From NCBI GenBank assembly GCA_021202335.1, contig JAJQDE010000005.1:1-32280 (forward strand): a stretch of DNA of 32,280 bases. The letters run 5' to 3'. A program made the translations under genes and the position numbers. A model generated the notes under the pieces. It had not been told where the DNA came from, searched no databases, and was given only the letters and a program-made list of their open reading frames with translations. This document shows positions 17,775-32,280 of the stretch, one piece after another (within the stretch, counting starts at the first letter, position 1; each line of letters starts with the position of its first letter). This DNA comes from Lachnospiraceae bacterium (lineage in GTDB: Bacteria > Bacillota > Clostridia > Lachnospirales > Lachnospiraceae).

Positions 17775-19313
17775 TTATTGATATTCAAAATAATCAAAAT
17801 CCGCGGGTATGCGCGAGCCGCAGCCCCCGTTGTTGGCGTAAATGCCAACGAGCGTGCCGGTATGGCGCTTAGGGTCGTCGGGAACGCCCTCATCACACAG
17901 GTAAATGCAGTTTTCAAGCACACCCGCAAGCGTCCATTCTTTTCCGTCATAGCTGTAATAAAAGCTCCTGGTAAGTCTGTCGACAACCACCTTAAGGTAA
18001 ACGCTCTGCTCTCTGATGCCGTCAACAGATGCCATCAATTCCTCCCCGTGATTGCGGTTTATCACAAGCTGCAGCTTTCTGCCCTCCTCGCAGCAAAGCG
18101 AAAACCTTGCGTATGTGGCTGTGCTGTAATAGCAGGTCAGCCCCGCCTGCTCGCCGTCCCTTTCCGGGTAAAAGTCGAGCTTCGTCGACGCCGTATAGCT
18201 CAGCTCCTGCTCTCTTCGGAGCAAAGTATTTTTGGCGCGGATTTCAAAAAGCTGCCCGTCTGACGTCCATATCCTGAAATACCCCGGTCTTTCCGTGAGC
18301 GAACAGTTCCCCTTTGCCGGGTTGCGCACAAACTCCCAGTTCAGATTCAGCGTATCGCTGTCAAAATCGTCCCTTGTACATGCTTCAAAGGTATTTTGAG
18401 GCAAATCGGGCGCAGTCTGTTCCGTGCTCGGGCCCTTTCCGGCATTTATGATAAACCAGCCGTCGTCAAGCCATGTGACCGGGTCTAAGCCGGTTTCCCT
18501 GCCTATGGTCGTATAATGTCCCTGATTGGGTCTGCCCATGAGATAATACACCCACCAGTCGCCGTCCTGTGTTTCTATCAGCTTTCCGTGCCCTGTCCTC
18601 TGAATGGGCGCGTCGGGATTGAACTGGCGCATGAGCGGATTGTAGGGCGACGGCTCATAAGGTCCAAACAGCTTCTCGGAGCGTCCGACATTAATCCCGT
18701 GCCCGTAGCCCGTGCCGCCCTCTGCCAAAATCGCGTAGTAATATTTGCCGCGCTTTAAAATATGCGGTCCTTCGGGACAGCGCTCGCCCGTCCCCTGCCA
18801 CACCGGAATGACGTCGCCCGTAACCTTCGTGCAGTCGTCGCTTAAGGGCACAAGGTTAATCCCCGGGCTTATTACCATATAATGCTTCCCGTCGTCGTCA
18901 ACAAAATGCGACGGGTCAATGCTGTCCACCTCAAGCCACGCGGGGCGGCTGTAGGGACCTTCGGGCTTGTCGGATGTGACGACGAGCTGTCTGCGCATAA
19001 CATTGTTGCCGCGATTTCCGCCGGCATTCAGGCGCAGCGTTGCCATAATGATGAATTTCCCGTTATGATACGAAATATCCGGCGCCCATATCCCGTGCGA
19101 GTCGCGTATATCGCTCAAATCAAGGTCGTCAGAGTCCGTAACGGCATGACCGATAATGTGCCAATGCACCATATCCCTTGAATGGCTGATTGCAATGGCG
19201 GGAAAATACTGAAATGTGGAATTTACCATATAATAGTCCTCACCCACCCTCACCACGGAAGGGTCAGGAAAGAACCCTCTCTGTACCGGATTTTGATATG
19301 TATTTTTCTTCAT
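17775..19313 (-). CDS. GH43 family glycosidase (beta-xylosidase/arabinofuranosidase type)
   Basis: This 512-residue enzyme has the GH43 five-bladed propeller with the catalytic base in FFPDPSVVR (Asp17), the pKa-tuning Asp in IDPSHFVDDDG (Asp133) and the general acid in CPEGPHILK (Glu181). From about residue 325 (DDFDSDTLNLNWEFVRNP) it carries the beta-sandwich domain common in GH43 beta-xylosidases. No signal peptide is present, so it likely hydrolyses imported xylo- or arabino-oligosaccharides in the cytoplasm. AAAGGAG precedes the start. It lies 12 bp after the other GH43 gene, in one operon. The exact linkage cut cannot be told from sequence. Confidence 0.92.
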   Translation of the reverse strand: MKKNTYQNPVQRGFFPDPSVVRVGEDYYMVNSTFQYFPAIAISHSRDMVHWHIIGHAVTDSDDLDLSDIRDSHGIWAPDISYHNGKFIIMATLRLNAGGNRGNNVMRRQLVVTSDKPEGPYSRPAWLEVDSIDPSHFVDDDGKHYMVISPGINLVPLSDDCTKVTGDVIPVWQGTGERCPEGPHILKRGKYYYAILAEGGTGYGHGINVGRSEKLFGPYEPSPYNPLMRQFNPDAPIQRTGHGKLIETQDGDWWVYYLMGRPNQGHYTTIGRETGLDPVTWLDDGWFIINAGKGPSTEQTAPDLPQNTFEACTRDDFDSDTLNLNWEFVRNPAKGNCSLTERPGYFRIWTSDGQLFEIRAKNTLLRREQELSYTASTKLDFYPERDGEQAGLTCYYSTATYARFSLCCEEGRKLQLVINRNHGEELMASVDGIREQSVYLKVVVDRLTRSFYYSYDGKEWTLAGVLENCIYLCDEGVPDDPKRHTGTLVGIYANNGGCGSRIPADFDYFEYQ

Positions 19314-19325
19314 ATTGTTCTCCTT

Positions 19326-20918
19326 TCAGAAGCGATAAACCACGCTCTCCACAATCGCCGCGCCCGTGCTCCCGTCCTTTTGGGACGCGCAGAACACGCC
19401 GTTTTTCACGCCCACCCATCTGCCGGGGACGGACGCCATTTCTCCCGCTTTAATGAAGCCCTCTGCGTCCGTGCCGTATTCGATTGTGACCGTTTCCAAA
19501 GGAAAATCCCTCTCACTTTTGCTCAAATCGCGCGTGCCTGTGCGTTTTACCGTATATCTTACATAAATCTCATCCGCTCTTCTCATGTCAATCGGCTCTA
19601 ATTCCGTCGCCGTTTCGACCGTTTCCACAGGCAGAATTTTTCCGTATTTCTGCTCTCCGGTTACATAGCGCGGCACAAGCATATCACTCCTTCTTTGGAA
19701 TGTAATAAGCCCATAGCGCATCCCCATTGAAATAACGCCCGCCTCGTCATAGTCCGAAAGCCCGGACAGATCAAGCCTCGTAATGCATGTAAATTCAGGC
19801 GCGGGCCACTTTTGCAGCAGCAGATTAGGCATATCGCCATACACGCTGTCCTTCTTTACGGCATTAAGCTTAAGACCCTTTCCCGTAAGCGTATACCATT
19901 CCTTTTTGGGGTTTGCGTTCCACTGCCACTGAAGCCCGAGCCTTGTGCCCGTAAAATCATCGGAGGCATCAGGCTCGCATATCCCGGCATCAGACACGGA
20001 AGCCGCTTTGCCCACGTTCGGCTTTTCATACTCCATGACAGGCTCCCCGTAATCATTGCCGTCCTTTGCAAGCCCGATAACCGGCCAGTCATTATGCCAG
20101 CTCATTGGTTGGAGATGGATTATCCTGCCCGCAGCATACACGTCCTGAAAATGCAAAAACCAATCCTCTCCCGTGACCGTGTCCACCCACGCGCCCTGAT
20201 GAGGTCCGTTCACCGGGCTGCCACCCTGACGCATCACGACCTTATACTCATACGGACCAAAAATGCTCCTTGAGCGAAGCACCGTCTGCCAGCCGATTTT
20301 TACGCCGCCTGCCGGAGCAAATATGTAATACCAGCCGTTCCGCTTATAGAGCTTTGGTCCCTCTATTGTAACCTGGTCGTTCAGGTTCCCGTCGAAAATC
20401 TTAACCTCATCGCCTATCAGCCCCATACCGTCAGGCTGCATCTCCACCATGTGCAGCACGCTCTTGTAGCCTATTCTGCTCTTTGCCACTCCCGCCACCA
20501 AATATGCCTTTCCATCGTCGTCCCAAAACGGGCAGGGGTCAATCCAGCCTGCTCCCGGTCTGATGTTGACGGGCTTTGACCATTTTCCGAACGGATTTTC
20601 CGCAGTGCTCATATATATACCTTCATCCGGCATGGGGAAGCACGCATAATATTTGCCGTCATGGTATCTCAGCGAGGGCGCCCACACTCCACAGCCATGA
20701 ACGGGCTTATCGTAGCGCTCGCCGGGAATTTCATCAAGAATATAATTTACCACCTTCCAGCTCACCAAATCCTTTGAGTGAAGAAGGGGCAGCCCCGGGG
20801 CATTGCAAAAGCTCGACGCAATCATAAAGTAATCCTCTCCCACTCTTATTGCGTCCGGGTCTGAATAATCCGCATACAAAATCGGATTTTTGTAGGTTCC
20901 GTATAGGTTATTTTTCAT
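19326..20918 (-). CDS. GH43 family glycosidase (subfamily 12-like)
   Basis: The 530-residue protein has GH43 residues in SDPDAIRVGEDYFM (Asp20), WIDPCPFWDDDGKAY (Asp127) and VTIEGPKLYK (Glu186), followed by a C-terminal beta-sandwich beginning near SDDFTGTRLGLQWQWNANP. The layout resembles GH43_12 arabinofuranosidase/xylosidase enzymes. There is no signal peptide, so it acts inside the cell. I start at ATG 20918, which has GGAG 6 nt upstream; an in-frame codon at 20948 has none and overlaps the palindrome array. It is the first gene of a two-gene operon, whose promoter region holds five tandem palindromes. Confidence 0.9.
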   Translation of the reverse strand: MKNNLYGTYKNPILYADYSDPDAIRVGEDYFMIASSFCNAPGLPLLHSKDLVSWKVVNYILDEIPGERYDKPVHGCGVWAPSLRYHDGKYYACFPMPDEGIYMSTAENPFGKWSKPVNIRPGAGWIDPCPFWDDDGKAYLVAGVAKSRIGYKSVLHMVEMQPDGMGLIGDEVKIFDGNLNDQVTIEGPKLYKRNGWYYIFAPAGGVKIGWQTVLRSRSIFGPYEYKVVMRQGGSPVNGPHQGAWVDTVTGEDWFLHFQDVYAAGRIIHLQPMSWHNDWPVIGLAKDGNDYGEPVMEYEKPNVGKAASVSDAGICEPDASDDFTGTRLGLQWQWNANPKKEWYTLTGKGLKLNAVKKDSVYGDMPNLLLQKWPAPEFTCITRLDLSGLSDYDEAGVISMGMRYGLITFQRRSDMLVPRYVTGEQKYGKILPVETVETATELEPIDMRRADEIYVRYTVKRTGTRDLSKSERDFPLETVTIEYGTDAEGFIKAGEMASVPGRWVGVKNGVFCASQKDGSTGAAIVESVVYRF

Positions 20919-20947
20919 TCTTCTCTCCGTTCCTGTTTTTTTCTCCA

Positions 20948-21024
20948 AATGTAATACATTAAAATGTAATACATTAAAATGTATTACATTTTAATGCAAT
21001 TACATTTTAATGTAAGTACATTTT
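20948..21024 (-). promoter_or_regulatory. Five tandem palindromic repeats upstream of the GH43 operon
   Basis: The consensus AATGTAATACATTAA occurs at 20948-20962 and again, identical, at 20963-20977. Variants follow at 20978-20992 (AATGTATTACATTTT), 20993-21008 (AATGCAATTACATTTT) and 21009-21024 (AATGTAAGTACATTTT). Each is nearly self-complementary, and neighbours also pair with each other. The spacing is 15-16 bp, one and a half DNA turns. It ends about 30 bp before the GH43 start. An array of operator half-sites for a sugar-responsive regulator is likely; which one is unknown. Confidence 0.75.
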
Positions 21025-23029: not shown

Positions 23030-26000
23030 TTATTGAACTACCTTAAATTTCAGCGTCTTTGTTCCGTAGAAACCGCCGTCTACTCCTGCGATACCTTTTA
23101 CAGTCACGGACGCCGTTCCTTTCTTGGCATTGTTTTTGTAGGTTCCCTCTACAATCTCAATGTTTTCGCCAAGCTTATAGGCTTCTCCAACATAATTCGT
23201 AATATCGTCCGCCGTAAGCTCTACCGGATTTCTTCCGTCATACTGTAATGTCACTTGCTTGTTAAACACGAAATTTTTATCCTTAGCAAGGTTTGTTGCT
23301 ATTCTGTAACTTGCGACATACGAAGAATCCTCCTTATAATTTGCCGTGTCAATCGGCGTGATTGTGACAGTCTTTGCCTCTGTGTCAATTGCTGTATTAT
23401 AGTTCTTGTTTGCCTTAAGCTTTACGCCCGCCACATCTGTCACCGTCACTGCTTTTGCAAGCTCTTTTTCAAGCTTCTTACCGTCTACGGCAATATCCTC
23501 GGGAACCGTAATGCAATCCGCAAAATCACCCTGTGCAATCGTAAAGGTACCTACAGAAATATTTTTTCCCGTGCACGCACCCTTGCCTGAAATTGTCACA
23601 TCGACCGTAGTGCCCGCAGATTTTTTCTTATCTGCATAATTGTACTTTGCTTTATAGTCCACACCCTCTGTCAGGCTGTAAGCCACGCCATCCTTTTGAG
23701 CCGTGAGCGTTGTAAGCTTTGCACCCTTTGGCGAATAAACAAGCTCCACTCCGTCCGTATTAAATGTAAGTTCACTCAGGGCAACGGGATTGATGGTAAA
23801 ATTCTTCGTCCAACTGCCGGAAAGGTTTGTTCCGATACCCTTTACCGTTACCGTTGCTTTTCCGGATTTTGTATTGTTTTTATACGTCACCGTATAATCT
23901 GTGCCCTGCTTTAACGTCCGTCCGCTGCTTGACTGTACCGCAAGACCCGTAACCGTAATCGGAGTTCCCGTATAATCATGGGCTGTTTCAAAGCTAAAGC
24001 TTTCCTCGTCCCATACAACGTTTGCCGTTGCCTTAGCCTCATTCTTATTCAGCGCCGCCTTTTTAATCGTAAAGGTAAATGTCTTGGAGCCTACATATAT
24101 TGTATCCTCCGTATCGGCTGTTTCCTTCGCCGAAATAGTTACCGTCGCCTTTCCGGCATTAATATTATTAGTGTACGCCACATTCAGTTTGCCGTCAAGG
24201 TCTGAAGCCTTTGAGTAGTCAAGCCCCGGCTCAATCGCATAGCCTGTGTAAACAGCCGATTTTGCTGATGAATCAAGCGCCACCTTTGCTTTGCTTATAT
24301 CCACAATGCTAACGCTGCTGTCCGACTTGCTTACTACCCGATAGGTTTTCGTTACCGTGCTTGCGGAATCAATCTTAAAGCTATCTGCCGTTCTGGCAAG
24401 TCCGGTAAGCGTCACACTGTAAACGGTTGTATTATCTTCGCTTACCATACCGTTCCATTCAGCAGAATAATCCAGCCCCTCCGCAAATTTAACATGCTTT
24501 TCTGCTCCGCTGCCATCCGTATAAGTATAGGTTACATAAGTGGTTGAAGGCTGCGTACTGCCTGCCTTATTATTATACAGAACTGACGGGACTGAGATTA
24601 CACAGTCTGCAAGCTGTATAGTGGTTACTGTTTCAGAAATCACCGTATATTCATAAACACTTATGTCACTCTTAATCTCGCCCTTTATTGCTATTGCCTT
24701 GACAGTTACCGATGCTTCAATCGTAATTCCATCGACATACTGTGTACTTTCAACTGTCGGGTCCGTTCCGTCCATTGTATAATAAATGTCCGCCCCCTCA
24801 GTTGCACATGTAAGCTTAATTATCGTACCCGCAGCAACACTGCCCGAAGCTGTATCAGCTATCGGTTTTTCTACGGTTTCCGTTCCGCTGTCATCAGGAT
24901 TTTCTTCGCTGTCATCCGTCAAGGTTTTAATTGTCATATCCTTGCCGCTGAACGCGTCCCAATCACTCAAGAACGCTGCCACCACGGTATCATCCGTAAC
25001 AATCGTGGTTTCATCCGCAAGCGTCACGTTTCCGTCGCTGTCCGCCGTGAGCACGCTCGCCCACTCTGCGCGTTTTGATGAATTGTCAACGCCTGACTTC
25101 TCCATGGTGCCGTACTCCTGACTCAGCACGGATTCACCGGCAAGCCCGCTGCCCCATGCCGCAGGCGTAATAAGCGACAGAGTTTCTCCGCTGTAATCCG
25201 TCGTTTCAACAATCGTTCTCCAAAACAGCGCCTCGCCCGTGTTTGCCTGCCAAGGTCTTCCAAAGTAGCCCGCCTGTGATGTCTTTTCCGCTGCCGTGTC
25301 AACGCCCGGCGTTGTGGAGGTTACCGTACAGTTGTACATCAGATAGCCGCGTCCCGACTGTGTCTGCGATGCCGTAATGTAGCCCACATCCGTGCTTGTC
25401 GCGCCGTCTGTGTTAAACACCAAATCGCACTTTGCAAATACCGCTGTCATAGGTCCGAAGATATAATCCGTGCCGCCGTATACCGAGCAGTCATAGAACG
25501 CCGCCGTCACGCCGGTTCCGCCGTACAATGTGTCCTGACGTCCGATAAATTTGCAGTTGTCAAAGCTGATTTGTGTGCAGCTGCTCATAATGGCAAGCGC
25601 TGCCGCACGCTCAACGTATGACTTGCCCTGTACCGTCGTGTCGCCTTGCGCCATATCGGCTCTTGCAGTGCTTCCCTCCTTAGCGCCCGACAAAGCTACA
25701 ATCACATCATCCGCCGCTTTCGCTGAAACATACTGGTTGAATGAATTTTCAAAAATAATTCCCTCTGCCTCAAAGCCGCTTGCTCCGATTACCACCGTCG
25801 CGTTCCAGTAGCTTCCGTTCGTAGTGCCCGAACCCGGATTTTCATATGAATACGCGCCGTTTGCCTTGTTCACCGCAAGCACATCCGCGTCATACTTGCA
25901 GTCGTCGCCCATCGAATAGTAAGCGTAGCCGTGTCCGTAATATGACGTGATACGCACCGCGTTATCATCAATATCAACACCCTTGTTTTTCGTTTCAATG

Positions 26001-29000
26001 CTCGGCGTGCTGCTCGCGTTCTTGAGCGTTACGTTCGGCACGTCAACAACGAGCATCTCCTCATAATCGCCCGGCGCAATTTCAATCGTCACGCGCGCAT
26101 TGTCCGTTCTGTCCATGCTCGCGACCGCGTCAAGAGCGTCGTTGATTGTTTCATAATCATAGCCGTCGCCCGAGCCAACCGTAATGGTTGATTTGTAATC
26201 AACCGACTCCGCGGCATACGTTAATGTTATCTTTGTAAAGTATGTGGTCGACGATGTGGAAATATTGACATATCCCGCGTCGCCGGTATAAGTATACGAG
26301 CTGCTTTTCGTTATGCTTGTACTGCCATATGCTTCGTCTTCGCCGTCCGTGAGCGTGATATAAACGCTGTCCTCAATCATGCCATCTGCTCTATAACAAT
26401 AGTAAACCTTAACCGTGCAGTCGCCCGCCACAGGCACCTGAAGTTTACCTCCTGAACCGCCCAGCGCATAGGTCTTATTCTTTGACACGCCGCTCATAAG
26501 CAGCCCCTTAAAGTTCGTCACATCCGTGAAATCATCATCCGAGAAATCCCACTCCGTAATCGGGTCCGTGTCAAAATTAATAGTCTTTGTCACCGCCGCG
26601 CCGTTTACAATCAAATCCGCCGTAAGCTTCTGCGTATAGGGGCTGTTAGCCACCGTCACCTCATACTGTCCGTCCCTAAGCGTGATGCCGCTTGTTCCGG
26701 TAAACGTGTATACGTAATCCTCCTCATACTGCTTCACGCTGTTTTCCGTGTACACCCTTGCAAACACAAAGCTTGCGCTTGCGAAATCGTCCTCGCTTAT
26801 CTCATCGCTCGGCTGCAGATCCAGCGTTATGTCATACTGCGTCTTTGCCGCAAACTCTATGCTTACATCAGATGTGTCCTCTGTATATCCTCCAATGCTT
26901 GCAGTACTAAGGTCAAAATCCTCCACGCCATCAGCAGTAACCGTATACTCCACGCCGCTTTCCAAGCTCAGGCTGTATGTGGAATTTGTCGTGTCAATGC
27001 TGATTTCCGGTATATAAATATAATCGTCGTTTGCAAATGTAAGCTCAACGCTCTTTATAGGCGTCTGATTGCCGCCGTTTACAGCGTCAAGCCCCGTGAT
27101 GCTTCCCGTCACCTCCACGAGATTTACAGCTTCCACCGTCACGTCATAGGTATAGGTTTTTCCGTTTTCGTCATCCTCTGTATAGAGGCTGCTATCCAGC
27201 GTAAAGCTTGTCGAGTCGTTCTTGATAACCCAGCCGTTTGCCTTGTAAAGCGATACGCTGTATGTGTAATCCTCGTTAAGGTAAGCCGCATATGTGCCGT
27301 TCTTTACCTTCGCTCTTGTCACCGCGCCCGTTATATCATTCGTAAACTGCACATAATATGTACCGCTCGGCTCCGTCGTTCCCTCTTCCATCGTGACATC
27401 GCCCGACACAAGCACATAATCCTTCTTCTCAACGGTCAGGCGCGCCACAACGAGCTTTTCATTCGTGCTGTACATTTTGTATTCGCCGGTCTGCGTCGCG
27501 TAAAAGGTAGCGATACCTGCATTCCCCGCCACGTAGCTGTAGGTCTGCGCATCCGTCGAATCGTCAATGTTTTCAAACACAATCGTTGAGTCGCCGCCGT
27601 TGCTGCTTACAACCGCCGTCACAACGTCGCCGGCTTCGAGATACACGCCAAGATATACGCCTGTACCGGACGCGTTCGAGTACAGATACCCGTAGTAGGT
27701 ATTTCCATCCGTGCCCGTCAGCGACTTTTCATCATATCTCGTTATCGCGGTGTTTTTCGTGCGGATACGATGGTTTGTCTTACTATTTGCGTAAAACTCA
27801 AGCAGAGTATCACCATCTTCGCCCGTCACCGAAAAATCGCCGATTCCTTCACCCGAGCTTCCTGCCGTCACAGTGCTGTCATACCAGCCGTTAATGATGT
27901 CCTCCGTGAGCATATTATTGTAGGTGTCCGTGTCAATATATGCCGTAGCCGTTCCATCACTTATCGCTGTCGCGCCTGCCGCAAAATCCCATACATCAGG
28001 CTTGCCGTCCGCATTCTTGCCCGTCACGCTCGTTGTGGGGTCTGTCTCGTTGGCAATGGGGGTAATGACAATCTTTTGCAGGTAGACCGTTCCCGTCGTG
28101 ACCTGCAGCCTTATATAGTTCACCCCTGTCGTACCCGCATAAATCTCACTGTCCTTTACGGTAACTGTCTGCTCCGTAGCGTCAGTGCCAAACGCCGTCC
28201 CACTCTCGCCATATGTCATTACGCTGCTATCGCCCAGGGCAGTTGCAAGCGTTATCGTAATTTTGCTGTTTCCTGCCACAGGTACCAAAATTCCGGTCGT
28301 AGCGTTTATCTGCACATCGCCGTTATCCGCACGGTACGCGAACTTACCACCGCTAGAAAGCGTCTGCGCATCCACTTTAATGCCGCCCGCTATTGTACCC
28401 ATTTCTTCTTCAATTGAAATATCTGTCCATTCACCGTCGCTATTGTCCGTGAAGTCCCATTCCGTACGGTATTCGCTGTCATCGTCATCATCCGACTCCT
28501 CGCGGGTAACGGTTATGCTGTACAGATATATCTGCGAATCCGCCGTCAGCGTAATATAGCCCGACTCGTCAAGCTCATAGTCCCAGCTCTGCTGATAGTT
28601 GTCAGCCGAAGCCTCCTTCGTCGTTCCCGTCATTGAATAGTTATAATAGCCGCTGCTAGTGACAATCTTTACGGTTCCTGTTCCCGATACCGGAATTTTA
28701 ACCGTTGTGTTTGCGTTTATCTGCACGCGGGTGCCGCTCGTGACTGCGAATTTTCCGCTGTTAGACGTGTCTACAAGCAGTCCGTTATATTCCACCTCTT
28801 CCGTACTTTGATAAGTGACTGACTCCAACGCCGTATCGCTGCTATCCGTGAAGTCCCATTCCAGCCTCTCCGTAAACGTAAAGCTATATTGCGTGTCCTC
28901 ACCGTTTACCGTAAGCTCATCAAAGCTTTCGCGCACATACGGGTAATCCACGTCCACATCAACCGAATATGTGCCGTCCCTAAGCGTTATGCTCGTCACG

Positions 29001-31391
29001 GCGTCCTCGCTGTTTTCCGAACCGCTGTTATACTCGATTGAATATGTGTAATCCTCATCCTCCGTGTCAGTAAACGTAATGGTCTTTCCGTCAAGCACCG
29101 TCGTGCTCTTATCATAGCTTGACACGCTGATATCTACCGTGTATTTTGTAAGCGCCGTGAATGTAATGTCATTATCTGTTATTGCGCTCGTTTCCGTCGT
29201 TACAGTTGACGGGCTGAAGCTGTAATCCTTAACGCCCGTTCCTGTTACTTCTATATTATAAGTCGCGCTTGTTTTCAGCGACGCCGTATAGGTCGTGCCG
29301 TCGTCGCCTGTCGTAAATTCGTTCACCGTAACCGTATGCGGCGTTTCCTCATCGCTGACATTCTCCGTAAATGTAATCGCAAGGTCGTCGGGGATGCTAG
29401 CACCATCCGGGAATGAAATGCTTCCCGACACGTCAACCAAGCTCATCGCGCTTGCCGTTATATCCAAGGTCGACGTTTCACTCGTCACCTCGACCGTCGC
29501 GCCCGACGGCGACGTAATGCTATAGCTTGAGTCGCTTAAGGAAATGGTGTATGTATTCCCAACAACCAACTCTGCCGAATAGCTGCCGGATGTCACGGTC
29601 GCTTCAATCGTTTCGCCGTCCCCATCAGTGAAAATCACTTTGTAGTCACCGTCTATCGTTCCTTCAAGCGTCACTGTTCCCGACACAGTTACTTTTTCAA
29701 CCGGAATAACGCATATATACGCTATATACGATGAGTTGCTGTTCACAGTGAGAGTCACTGAATTGCTTTCACCCTTATATTTGTAGATAACCGTATTGTC
29801 ACCCATCGTCTTGCAATTTGCAAGCGTAGCATGACCTGATGTTACCGTTGTCTGCGTTTCCGGTGAAACCGCTCCGCTATCAGCGGTAGCGACTGTCGCC
29901 GCAAGGTCTGTACAGCTATTGTTATTATCTCCGCCTACCACAATATAACTGTCACCTGCCACTTTAAACGTCAGCATATTTCCGGCTTTAAACTGTATTC
30001 CATAAGTCGCACTATGATACGATGCAGCATTAGAATTTCCCGCGCTAAAACTAAACAAACCCGCGCTGTATGTGTTCGCTATTCCACTGCTAAATCCGGT
30101 AAAATCATAATAATATGACGTATTCTCCGCTATGCTGCTTACTTCCATACCATTATAAAAACCGTCCGCGTCAGCTTCAACAGTTTCCGACGAATCGTCA
30201 TCGCCCGATTCATCTTCCGTGCTACTGCCATAAACAATCGCAATAGACGCTATATAGGTCTGCCCCGTCACTATAATAGGTACATAACCTTTCCCTCCGG
30301 TATAGCTATAATTGCAAGTCAGTGAATTACTTCCACTGCCTTCCGTCTGTGTATATGTATTACTACTATCACTGGTACTATAATATGAAAGCGCCCATTG
30401 ATAGCCAGCCGAAACCGTAACTGTACAATCACCTGACACAGGCACCAAAATATAGCCATACGTTGTTATAGTCATGCCATATGTACTGCTGTGATATTTT
30501 CCGTTATATATAACCAAATTGTTATATGTATACTCACTGGAACTGTCAGTGTAAGAGCTGTATGCGCTATCCGTAAAATCATAAGTTGTATCATCAGTTC
30601 CAAATGCGCTGTCCGTAATATCCGTTACTTCTATTGAATTAAAGTAAGAAGTACCCGAAACCGTAATCGTTACATACTCCGTATCATCACTGTCATGCAC
30701 ATACAGAAAACGCTGTGTGCTGTTTGTACTTCCACTGTTATAATAAATTACAGCTTCATCCTCAAATTTAAAGCTGTAACTATAACAAGCCGTCACGCTA
30801 ACCAATTTCTTTCCGGCTACGGGTATCTTAATGGTGCCGCCGTTTGACATAAGCAAATATTTGCTGTTATTTACTTTTCCATACGTTATTTGCAGACCAT
30901 TATAACTCGTTGTAGTCGAACTGCTGTCAAAGCTCGAAAAGCCACTATCCGTAAAGTCCCAGCTTGTAGTCGATGTGTCTATTTCGTCACTTTCCTCTTC
31001 CTCATCGGTCGTGTCCTCTTCGGTCGTGTCCTCTTCGGTTGTGTCCTCCTCAGTCGTGTCCTCCTCGTCCGCGTCCTTATTATCTTCCTCGGAAGCGTCC
31101 TCCTCGGACTGCAAAACCGGAACGGTTTCAACCGTTTCGGCTTCTTCCGTTTCGGTTTCTGCCTCATCGGCTTCTTCCGCTTCCTCAACCGTATCTTCGC
31201 CGTCAGCTTCAGCCGTTTCCTCAACCGTATCTTCACTGTCAGCTTCAGATGCTTCCGCCTCTTCAGTATACCCCCCCCCCGGTAGTTGCGGAGGTTTCGC
31301 TTGCGAAGGCTGTCATGTTTGACATAATCATAGCGCCTGATATCAGATACGCTAAAATCCGCCTTCCGAATTTCTTTCTAAGCTTACTCAT
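23030..31391 (-). CDS. Giant secreted multidomain pectinesterase; frame broken at a G10 tract
   Basis: Pectin methylesterase removes methyl groups from pectin, here outside the cell. An ATG at 31391 starts a signal peptide (RRILAYLISGAMIMSNMTAF, cut after AFA). After 40 codons comes a run of ten G (31271-31280); as read, the frame then stops at TGA 31263. With nine or twelve G it continues as YTEEAEASEAD and stays open to 23030, giving about 2786 residues. Order: acidic repeat-rich stretch; seven modules starting WDFTD, YDFTD or similar; Ig/carboxypeptidase-like beta domains between them; the pectinesterase domain (about 26200-25000) with GRQDTLYG, GGTDYIFG and FGRPWQ; a chitobiase-C-like module (about 24880-24640); and several MBG/Ig-like repeats to the end. 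No LPxTG motif or dockerin is visible. The weak site GGGG precedes the start. Confidence 0.85.
31005..31064 (-). repeat. Four 15-bp tandem repeats encoding EEDTT
   Basis: Four units of the TCGGTCGTGTCCTCT type (plus-strand sense) encode EEDTTEEDTTEEDTTEEDTT on the minus strand. A longer degenerate repeat encoding EDTVEE lies next to it (31180-31260). In-frame units make this a length-variable acidic linker. Confidence 0.85.
31271..31280 (-). repeat. Homopolymeric G10 tract in the pectinesterase gene
   Basis: Ten consecutive C on the plus strand (G on the coding strand) follow the signal peptide. The frame is continuous on both sides only if the tract has nine or twelve bases. Confidence 0.9.
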
Positions 31392-31406
31392 TTTTACCCC
31401 ATTTCT

Positions 31407-31595: not shown

Positions 31596-31713
31596 GTGCC
31601 AAATTCACATTTTGTTCATAAAATTAACTTTTTCACTCCAAAATTTCTGCGCGATTTTGGTGCATTTTTCACAACCACCCAAAATATTCCCCTTTTTATA
31701 CAGTAGCGCCGCC

Positions 31714-31851
31714 TTCCTATACGATTAAGAATGTGCCGACTGCGCATTCTCGCGCCGAGCGCGGTCGCTTGCGACATATTTCATCTTTGCGCGAGTGCGC
31801 ATCCTCGCGGAGCGTTTTATCGTATAGGACGAACCTTCCTATACGATAAAA
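31714..31851. repeat. Small inverted-repeat (MITE/REP-like) element
   Basis: TTCCTATACGATTAAGA (31714-31730) and its inverse TTTTATCGTATAGGA (31815-31829) flank a GC-rich, palindrome-rich core of about 85 bp with no coding sequence. A third copy, TTCCTATACGATAAAA (31836-31851), pairs with the second to make a perfect 15-bp hairpin. The layout is that of a non-autonomous miniature element or a repeated palindromic unit. Confidence 0.6.
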
Positions 31852-31886
31852 AAATCCATGCGGAATTACTCCGCAATGGATTTTTT
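31848..31886 (-). terminator. Terminator of the Rpn-family gene
   Basis: AAAAAATCCAT-GCGGA pairs with TCCGC-ATGGATTTTTT around ATTAC, with one unpaired base. It lies directly after the stop at 31889 and overlaps the last copy of the inverted-repeat element. Confidence 0.8.
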
Positions 31887-31888
31887 GT

Positions 31889-32280
31889 TTAACCGTTCGG
31901 CTTATTTGATGAATCCTCTATAATCCTGCGCACCTCCTCAAGCGTCTTTTCGGAAGCCTCCGCAATCTGCTCCAAAGAATAACCGTTATTATGAAATTTC
32001 ACAATCATTCGCGCCTCCCCCTGAGAAATGCCTTGAGAGATACCCTGAGAGATACCTTGCGAAATACCCTGAGAGATACCTCGCGAAATTCCGTGTTCTT
32101 CGCCCTGAGCAAAGCTCTTTTGCGCTTCCTTTTCGATTTCCATATCCCATTGCGGCTGCATTAAGTCCTTCAACACTTCAAACATATTTTCTTCCTCCTT
32201 TACCCCCTGAAACAATTTCCTGTTCGCTTTCGCGGAAACCTGCATGATGGAGTCGATATAATCCAGCTCCCTCCTGTCCG
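31889..32280 (-). CDS. Rpn-family PD-(D/E)XK nuclease/putative transposase, C-terminal part
   Basis: The frame is open to the window edge (DRRELDYIDSIMQVSAKANR), so the N-terminal nuclease domain is outside. What is seen is the usual C-terminal part: FEVLKDLMQPQWDMEIEKEA, then FAQGEEHGIS and six GIS(Q/R) units, and a final helix pair KFHNNGYSLEQIAEASEKTL. Such tails are common in Lachnospiraceae Rpn proteins, which promote RecA-independent recombination. A codon for Met at 32245 is internal, not the true start. The family is assigned from the tail alone. Confidence 0.6.
   Translation of the reverse strand, partial: DRRELDYIDSIMQVSAKANRKLFQGVKEEENMFEVLKDLMQPQWDMEIEKEAQKSFAQGEEHGISRGISQGISQGISQGISQGISQGEARMIVKFHNNGYSLEQIAEASEKTLEEVRRIIEDSSNKPNG
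32022..32093 (-). repeat. Six 12-bp tandem repeats encoding GISQ
   Basis: Six 12-bp units (variants of TGAGAGATACCC on the plus strand) encode GISRGISQGISQGISQGISQ and one more unit. Copy number can change without breaking the frame. Confidence 0.85.

Follow-up and report, generated by a model that had tools for sequence, protein, structure and literature searches.

The stretch of DNA analysed here (the window, 32,280 nucleotides) is the entire contig C28 of a draft genome, called G000 below, which comprises 2.74 Mb in 65 contigs. On the minus strand, an ATG at 31389-31391 opens a frame that reads MSKLRKKFGRRILAYLISGAMIMSNMTAFASETSATTGGGVY and ends with a TGA at 31263-31265, which is codon 43. 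The preliminary description had reported ten G after the signal-peptide codons and a translation stop after 42 residues in this state, and both were recovered: there are ten C on the plus strand at 31271-31280, that is, ten G on the coding strand, and the TGA follows as described. In the ten-G state the gene therefore reads as a typical signal peptide, then Ser-Glu-Thr-Ser-Ala-Thr-Thr, the G run and TGA. From 31270 onward on the same strand, 2746 codons are free of stops, up to a stop codon at 23030-23032, and the large open frame of about 2740 codons claimed earlier was thus confirmed, with a pectinesterase domain (PF01095) in it. The frame of the giant gene is therefore set by the tract length modulo 3. 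The features of the locus are collected in Table 1, together with the G tracts found elsewhere in the genome.

Table 1. Features of the pectinesterase locus in the window (upper rows) and the 19 TA-flanked G tracts of the genome by contig (lower rows).
Feature	Location	Strand	Tract	Frame state	Basis
GGGG, likely ribosome-binding site, 5' of ATG	31397..31400	-			read from sequence; putative
Start codon and signal peptide (MSKLRKKFGRRILAYLISGAMIMSNMTAFASETSATT)	31281..31391	-			translation; homologues from other species of the genus begin with the same start and a similar signal peptide
Ten-G tract, proposed switch	31271..31280	-	10 G		sequence
TATACT abutting the tract, the TA(T) flank common to the tract class	31265..31270	-			sequence, tract comparison
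TGA ending the frame in the assembled ten-G state	31263..31265	-			translation
Post-tract open frame, 2746 codons: Glu/Asp/Thr-rich linker and large repetitive extracellular region	23030..31270	-			translation
Pectinesterase domain (PF01095)	25046..25642	-			Pfam E 7e-18, above cut-off; PDB matches
CHB_HEX_C_1 / Fn3_assoc domain	24647..24850	-			Pfam
Window pectinesterase	C28		10 G	out of frame	
Pectinesterase and GDSL lipase	C3		9 G	in frame	
Leucine-rich-repeat proteins (LRR_5 and/or DUF285)	C8, C33, C39:51405, C40, C45:4899, C51, C61, C63			all out of frame	
No family assigned	C34		11 G	in phase, runs off contig after 34 codons	
Two GDPD-domain (glycerophosphodiester-phosphodiesterase) proteins	C65 (two tracts)			one out of frame, one in frame	
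Sugar-transfer ATP-grasp protein	C39:1084			in frame	
3' part of YfhO gene; start of DUF6020 gene	C49 (two tracts)			both in phase	
No surface- or glycan-type gene across the tract	C10, C59			C59: opposite-strand open frame of 193 codons spans the tract	
Response-regulator-like gene on the opposite strand	C45:10573			in frame there	by eye

The product of the long frame is a predicted pectinesterase, with a PF01095 match of 64.7 bits against a curated cut-off of 27. Against the PDB, the domain region hits 9mm2, an entry labelled "putative cell wall binding repeat-containing protein", with E 1e-108, while entries whose molecule is called pectinesterase follow from E 1e-14 to weaker values; NCBIfam gave no match at E 0.01. 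A palindrome-like element (31700-31880, by eye) lies in the intergenic space that separates the pectinesterase gene from the next ORF; in it, CCTATACGAT occurs in both orientations flanking a G+C-rich core. An open ORF at 31889-32278 on the minus strand carries short tandem repeats of the GIS-Q/R type by eye and has no Pfam match. Elsewhere in the window, at 17775-20948 on the minus strand, a GH43 glycosidase (Pfam) and an ORF with weak similarity to arabinan endo-arabinosidase (NCBIfam, well under the cut-off) make up a plant-polysaccharide neighbourhood.

The tract in the window is one of many in this genome. G000 holds 29 runs of at least 8 G, 19 of which are followed by TA, while the reversed control pattern gives none; among its 18 runs of exactly 7 G, one is followed by TA. 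After removing duplicates with identical 25-nt flanks, runs longer than 14 and flanks containing N, there remain 24 tracts (4 G8, 9 G9, 8 G10, 2 G11 and 1 G13), a set that still holds a few from poor contig-end sequence (C26, C27, C59), and 17 of them are followed by TA. The rise at 9-10 G past the low at 7 is no random tail, and the run-length counts, in this genome as in the genus, give homopolymers longer than chance predicts. Runs of 33 and 20 G (C49:17917-17971) and one of 52 G (C65:159655-159707) lie beside N gaps and are probably assembly artefacts, so homopolymer counts in G000 must leave them out.

From Table 1, 11 of the 19 TA tracts are near the start of secreted-protein genes, namely two pectinesterases, eight leucine-rich-repeat proteins and one protein of no assigned family. 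In these secreted or surface targets the tract is in or past the N-terminal signal region; that of C8 lies 324 nt into the gene. The script had scored C45:10573 as OFF, which is wrong because this tract is in frame in an opposite-strand gene. The clear coding tracts in the G sense consist of ten OFF and four ON (C3, C39:1084, C49:18606 and C65:93073). For six of the ten OFF genes the downstream frame is 1105-2746 codons long, and for four it is 327-367 codons, one of these being cut by a contig end; the downstream frame in C33 passes through an N gap. Two OFF leucine-rich-repeat genes have a seeming second lesion in the ORF list: in C61 (8526 onward) the frame is stopped after 367 codons and then stays open for another 1205, and C51 (1314 onward) shows, 341 codons in, an overlap into another frame. 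Some OFF genes may therefore be decaying.

Tracts were then taken without regard to their flanks from five genomes of the same genus, which are G000 and also G017 (49 tracts from 58 places), G007 (23 from 23), G010 (19 from 19) and G022 (13 from 17), giving 128 after the same filter. TA follows 88 of the 128, and in 70 of these it is TAT. TA was found after 80 of 101 runs of 9-13 G compared with about 8% of runs of 2-5 G (382 kb, five genomes; p about 1e-68). By length, the fractions are 7.4%, 8.1%, 9.4% and 12.6% for G2 to G5, 0/16 for G6 and 0/1 for G7, and then 8/27 for G8, 41/54 for G9, 30/35 for G10, 7/8 for G11 and 2/4 for G12-G13. Since the loci were picked for long runs, counts of 8 and above are near genome-wide and those of shorter runs are local, so that the TA fractions can be compared but the raw counts cannot. 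On the upstream side, TAC precedes the run at a distance of 0-2 nt in 50 of the 88 TA tracts, as against 4 of the 40 others. The commonest form is (A)ATAC(N0-2)G8-12TAT(A), which is a short inverted repeat around the run; past TAC/GTA the two sides pair poorly, with complementary bases in 24, 15 and 10 of 50 cases at the three positions that follow.

Across the genus, G8TA is present in 26 of 36 genomes, with 0-43 matches per genome. The preliminary description had read the window tract as a phase-variation site, and this reading is supported by the same kind of tract at 19 sites in the genome and 226 in the 36 genus genomes, where the reversed control pattern gives 21. Tracts are also carried by G010, an assembly of 20 contigs of up to 1.3 Mb, and the class is thus not limited to fragmented drafts. 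In G010, a stretch of less than 9 kb (C12:783985-792650) holds six TA tracts, distributed over the two strands, and forms a dense island of candidate switches.

A tract was counted as coding when an upstream start was at least 45 nt away and the downstream frame had at least 80 codons, and 58 TA tracts pass this rule. Among them 29 are in frame, 16 are off by one and 13 are off by two (29 in and 28 out without the misassigned C45:10573); the in-frame share is above one third (p 0.006). Both in the window gene and in the coding TA tracts, the placement fits a one-base indel switching the product off. The counts of tracts in and out of frame are 3 and 9 in G000, 11 and 12 in G017, 6 and 2 in G007, 6 and 0 in G010, and 3 and 6 in G022, where the values for G000 leave out the identical-flank copies C45:4899 and C63, and also C49:18606, with its start less than 45 nt away. 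The 18 coding tracts without TA comprise 12 in phase and 6 out of phase, so some frame breaks lie beyond the TA class, and a few of these out-of-phase tracts may be true switches without the flank.

The remaining 30 TA tracts are intergenic, close to the end of a gene, or at too short a distance from a start to pass the coding rule. With 15-21 nt from the flank allowed, a perfect TTGACA is located 19-21 nt before the TA in four of them (one in G000 and three in G017), compared with a local background of 0.24% (p about 9e-7). For example, the C10 tract of G000 reads TTGACA, 19 nt, TATCAT and is in the promoter spacer, an arrangement that the window gene does not have. L048 of G003, a TA-selected locus outside the five-genome set, reads TTGACA, 18 nt, TATAAT. 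By its anatomy, the TTGACA-bearing subset is one of predicted promoter-spacer switches.

Pfam was run on the 81 pieces adjoining TA tracts (of the 88 tracts, seven had no piece of 60 aa), and the best 25 of 67 families were considered. Among the matches listed, related methyltransferase families reach up to 10 of 81 and LRR_5 is found 6 times, while formyl-, acyl- and TylF-type transferases, radical SAM, sulfatase, GDPD and hexapeptide occur twice each. No family was present more than twice in the control, which consisted of 30 pieces beside 40 non-TA tracts. The targets thus resemble surface proteins and glycan decoration, the kinds of function switched in known phase-variable repertoires. 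With tracts recurring at the starts of surface-protein genes, at glycan-modification genes and in some promoter spacers, the phase-variation reading is much better supported than it was from the window tract.

A 0.9 kb query around the signal peptide of the window gene gave matches in 9 of 38 genus genomes, G000 included, some of them away from the signal peptide. Among the signal-peptide homologues found, a long tract is present in the two copies of this genome (C28 and C3) and in no other. Eight homologous signal peptides in G006, G010, G012 and G025 (L075, L076, L077, L079, L084, L085, L087 and L089) carry at the corresponding site either G/A-rich sequence with interruptions or six G, followed by TAC/TAT, and are in frame across the 80 codons shown. 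Four less similar signal peptides (L080, L086, L090 and L091) do not show these features. From the G-rich, TA-flanked homologous sites it follows that the window tract was gained or lost at a site of this kind. Named relatives of the pectinesterase were found in Butyrivibrio (FCS014 and SIG345), an uncultured Eubacterium and a Lachnospiraceae MAG (L069-L073); they share the same core, with 42-62% identity in the best segment, and in the fetched stretches of the six loci from named genomes there is no run of at least 7 G. The preliminary description had named related strains that lack a G tract and are fixed in frame as a finding that would speak against switching. In part this picture is observed, at the level of other species and genera instead of strains, in the eight signal peptides and the six loci above.

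Tract lengths were also compared between homologous sites. The window gene with 10 G and the C3 copy with 9 G, which are 82% identical over 139 nt, are the sole pair that differs. Lengths are equal in C40, C45 and C63 (all 8; 79-87% identical) and in C33 and C51 (both 9; 86%). Between species, the tract is spanned in two matches only, and both pairs have equal lengths: G010 and G012 (both 10; 98.6%), and G017 and G029 in a 55-nt promoter match (both 10; 84%).

Several explanations for the flank and the distribution of the tracts were tried and rejected. A codon-level cause of the TA flank was ruled out, as the long downstream ORF is distributed over the three frames as 21/17/20 and the upstream leftover as 19/20/19. 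The flank does not serve as a provider of early stops, the wrong-frame stops within 5 codons being 0.448 observed versus 0.416 elsewhere in the same genes. It is also not a -10 box everywhere, which is ruled out for the coding tracts, where a perfect TTGACA is found in 1 of 58 versus 4 of 30 non-coding ones. Loss of MutS as the cause was discarded: G000 has a full-length MutS1, 34 of the 38 genomes of the genus score over the cut-off, among them G017, G020, G027 and G029, all rich in tracts, and with MutS1 intact no repair defect of this kind is seen. A weaker MutS-domain match with one TGA and one TAA inside occurs in G017 (C31:30490-31305), G020 (C7:55169-55984) and G029 (C15:36180-36998), separate from the full-length MutS1, which has no stops. 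Contig breaks near tracts were considered as a sign of mixed lengths. The tracts within 250 nt of a contig end are 4 of 14 in G022 (p 0.005) and 1 of 19 in G000, and this line was set aside because G022 was picked post hoc and the positions were typed by hand.

Beyond the genus, a sample of 393 genomes of the order contains at least one G8TA match in 232 and none in 161. Strong excess over the reversed pattern is seen, for example, in G164 (19 versus 1), G265 (15 versus 0), G241 (17 versus 1) and G186 (14 versus 0). The last two belong to a patchy excess in other families of the order (f11 and f18), where G224 (13 versus 1) and G052 (29 versus 6) also show it. A phylum-wide feature was rejected: in a 299-genome sample the top counts outside the order are 11 (G444, versus 8; G498, versus 4; G668, versus 3), so strong excess lies mainly in the order. 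A phage origin was also considered: scanning IMG/VR for TACNG9TAT alone returned 36 stretches, several of them repeats of each other, and nothing noticed in these stretches tied them to the genus.

We consider that the ten-G run is very probably a slipped-strand (simple-sequence-repeat) phase-variation tract and a member of a multi-locus set that switches the surface repertoire. In the proposed mechanism, replication slippage would cause the run to gain or lose one G. At a length that joins the signal peptide to the 2746-codon body in frame, the giant pectinesterase would be made and secreted (ON); at other lengths translation would end within a few codons (OFF), and the assembly would represent the OFF state. 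The set would include pectinesterases, leucine-rich-repeat surface proteins, glycerophosphodiester-phosphodiesterase-domain proteins and glycan genes, with switching mostly via the reading frame and at a few sites via promoter-spacer length. We infer that tract lengths change in living populations, that the change is reversible and that it affects pectin use or adhesion.

Homopolymer runs are error-prone, and if the tenth G were an assembly or sequencing error, the gene would be fixed in frame and there would be no switching. This draft of 65 contigs does have clear poly-G artefacts elsewhere, and the C3 paralogue has nine G and is in frame; the window tract alone could still be mis-counted. 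However, an error at one tract cannot account for the genus-wide class of long G runs, the shared flanks, the positions at surface gene starts and the promoter-spacer tracts, and errors would have to affect about half of the 58 coding TA tracts. We regard this explanation as unlikely. That the window gene is a frameshifted pseudogene would agree with its being out of frame as assembled, and with the two other OFF genes that have seeming second lesions, but 2746 codons without a further stop, a pectinesterase domain near a solved structure and a related C3 copy in frame make this highly improbable. RNA polymerase or the ribosome can slip on homopolymer runs, and transcriptional slippage or ribosomal frameshifting could then bypass the tract, the protein being made in every state. 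Slippage-prone motifs of RNA polymerases are mentioned in PMC9187656. Such a bypass would nevertheless have no bearing on the tracts in promoter spacers, where the frame is irrelevant, and the class has neither a fixed reading frame nor a common downstream stop pattern; we give it very little credence.

As for the flank, it could favour slippage, keep the run free of interruptions or serve as a recognition site for a protein. A further idea, which we put forward tentatively and with considerable doubt, is that the frame-independent (A)ATAC(N0-2)-G8..12-TAT(A) is a dedicated G-tract switch element, where a factor that recognises the sequence, or a special context of replication or repair, would create the tract, preserve it or speed its slippage, and by means of which a commensal clade would run a large set of surface genes on and off.

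To our knowledge, multi-gene on/off switching of this kind has so far been described mostly in pathogens. The pathogen Campylobacter jejuni has many poly-G contingency tracts per genome with surface and glycan-modification targets, and in this it resembles the G000 set; we know of no TA flank on its tracts. According to the available part of PMC9187656, the sortase-pilus genes of Bifidobacterium breve, a Gram-positive gut commensal, contain an intragenic G10-G11 tract whose frame is restored by slippage, and mixed lengths were found by maximum-depth sequencing, with G11 and G12 in one culture and shifts in mice. The present case is similar in having an intragenic G tract, a surface product and dependence on frame. 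The B. breve work (PMC9187656) concerns two loci in one strain with mixed lengths demonstrated, whereas here there are 19 candidates in the assembly of one genome; they differ from B. breve in that secreted pectin enzymes and LRR proteins are among the targets, that one tract is in a promoter spacer and that an ATAC/TAT flank is shared. Replication slippage at G9-G11, as in B. breve, appears to be the simplest account of the tracts. Indels in promoter-region repeats alter transcription of the Haemophilus influenzae fimbriae (mentioned in the same part of PMC9187656), while in our promoter type a mononucleotide G run directly abuts a -10-like TATxxT. Homopolymeric tracts near the 5' ends of coding genes have been proposed as reversible switches (PMC2831843); the accessible portion of that paper stresses poly(A) and poly(T), in contrast to the long poly-G with a fixed flank found here. 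In Bacteroides, glycan use undergoes phase variation driven by invertases (PMC11868660, in the portion available), which is likewise phase-variable polysaccharide metabolism in a gut commensal, the difference being DNA inversion there and the proposed repeat slippage here. Judged by titles and the starts of abstracts, no description of poly-G phase variation in Lachnospiraceae was recognised among the literature matches listed, a search in which subscription journals were mostly outside.

Taken together, G000 and the other genomes of its genus appear to form a multi-locus phase-variable clade, in which poly-G tracts would control pectin enzymes related to diet, LRR surface proteins and genes of glycan modification. 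The clade is probably commensal, judging by the lifestyle of its relatives. The fixed flank offers a handle for finding such switches in metagenomes and a lead to the origin or upkeep of G tracts. If the reading is true, single strains would be mixtures of enzyme and adhesin states, and because states would be mixed within a strain, one assembled genome would misstate its capabilities.
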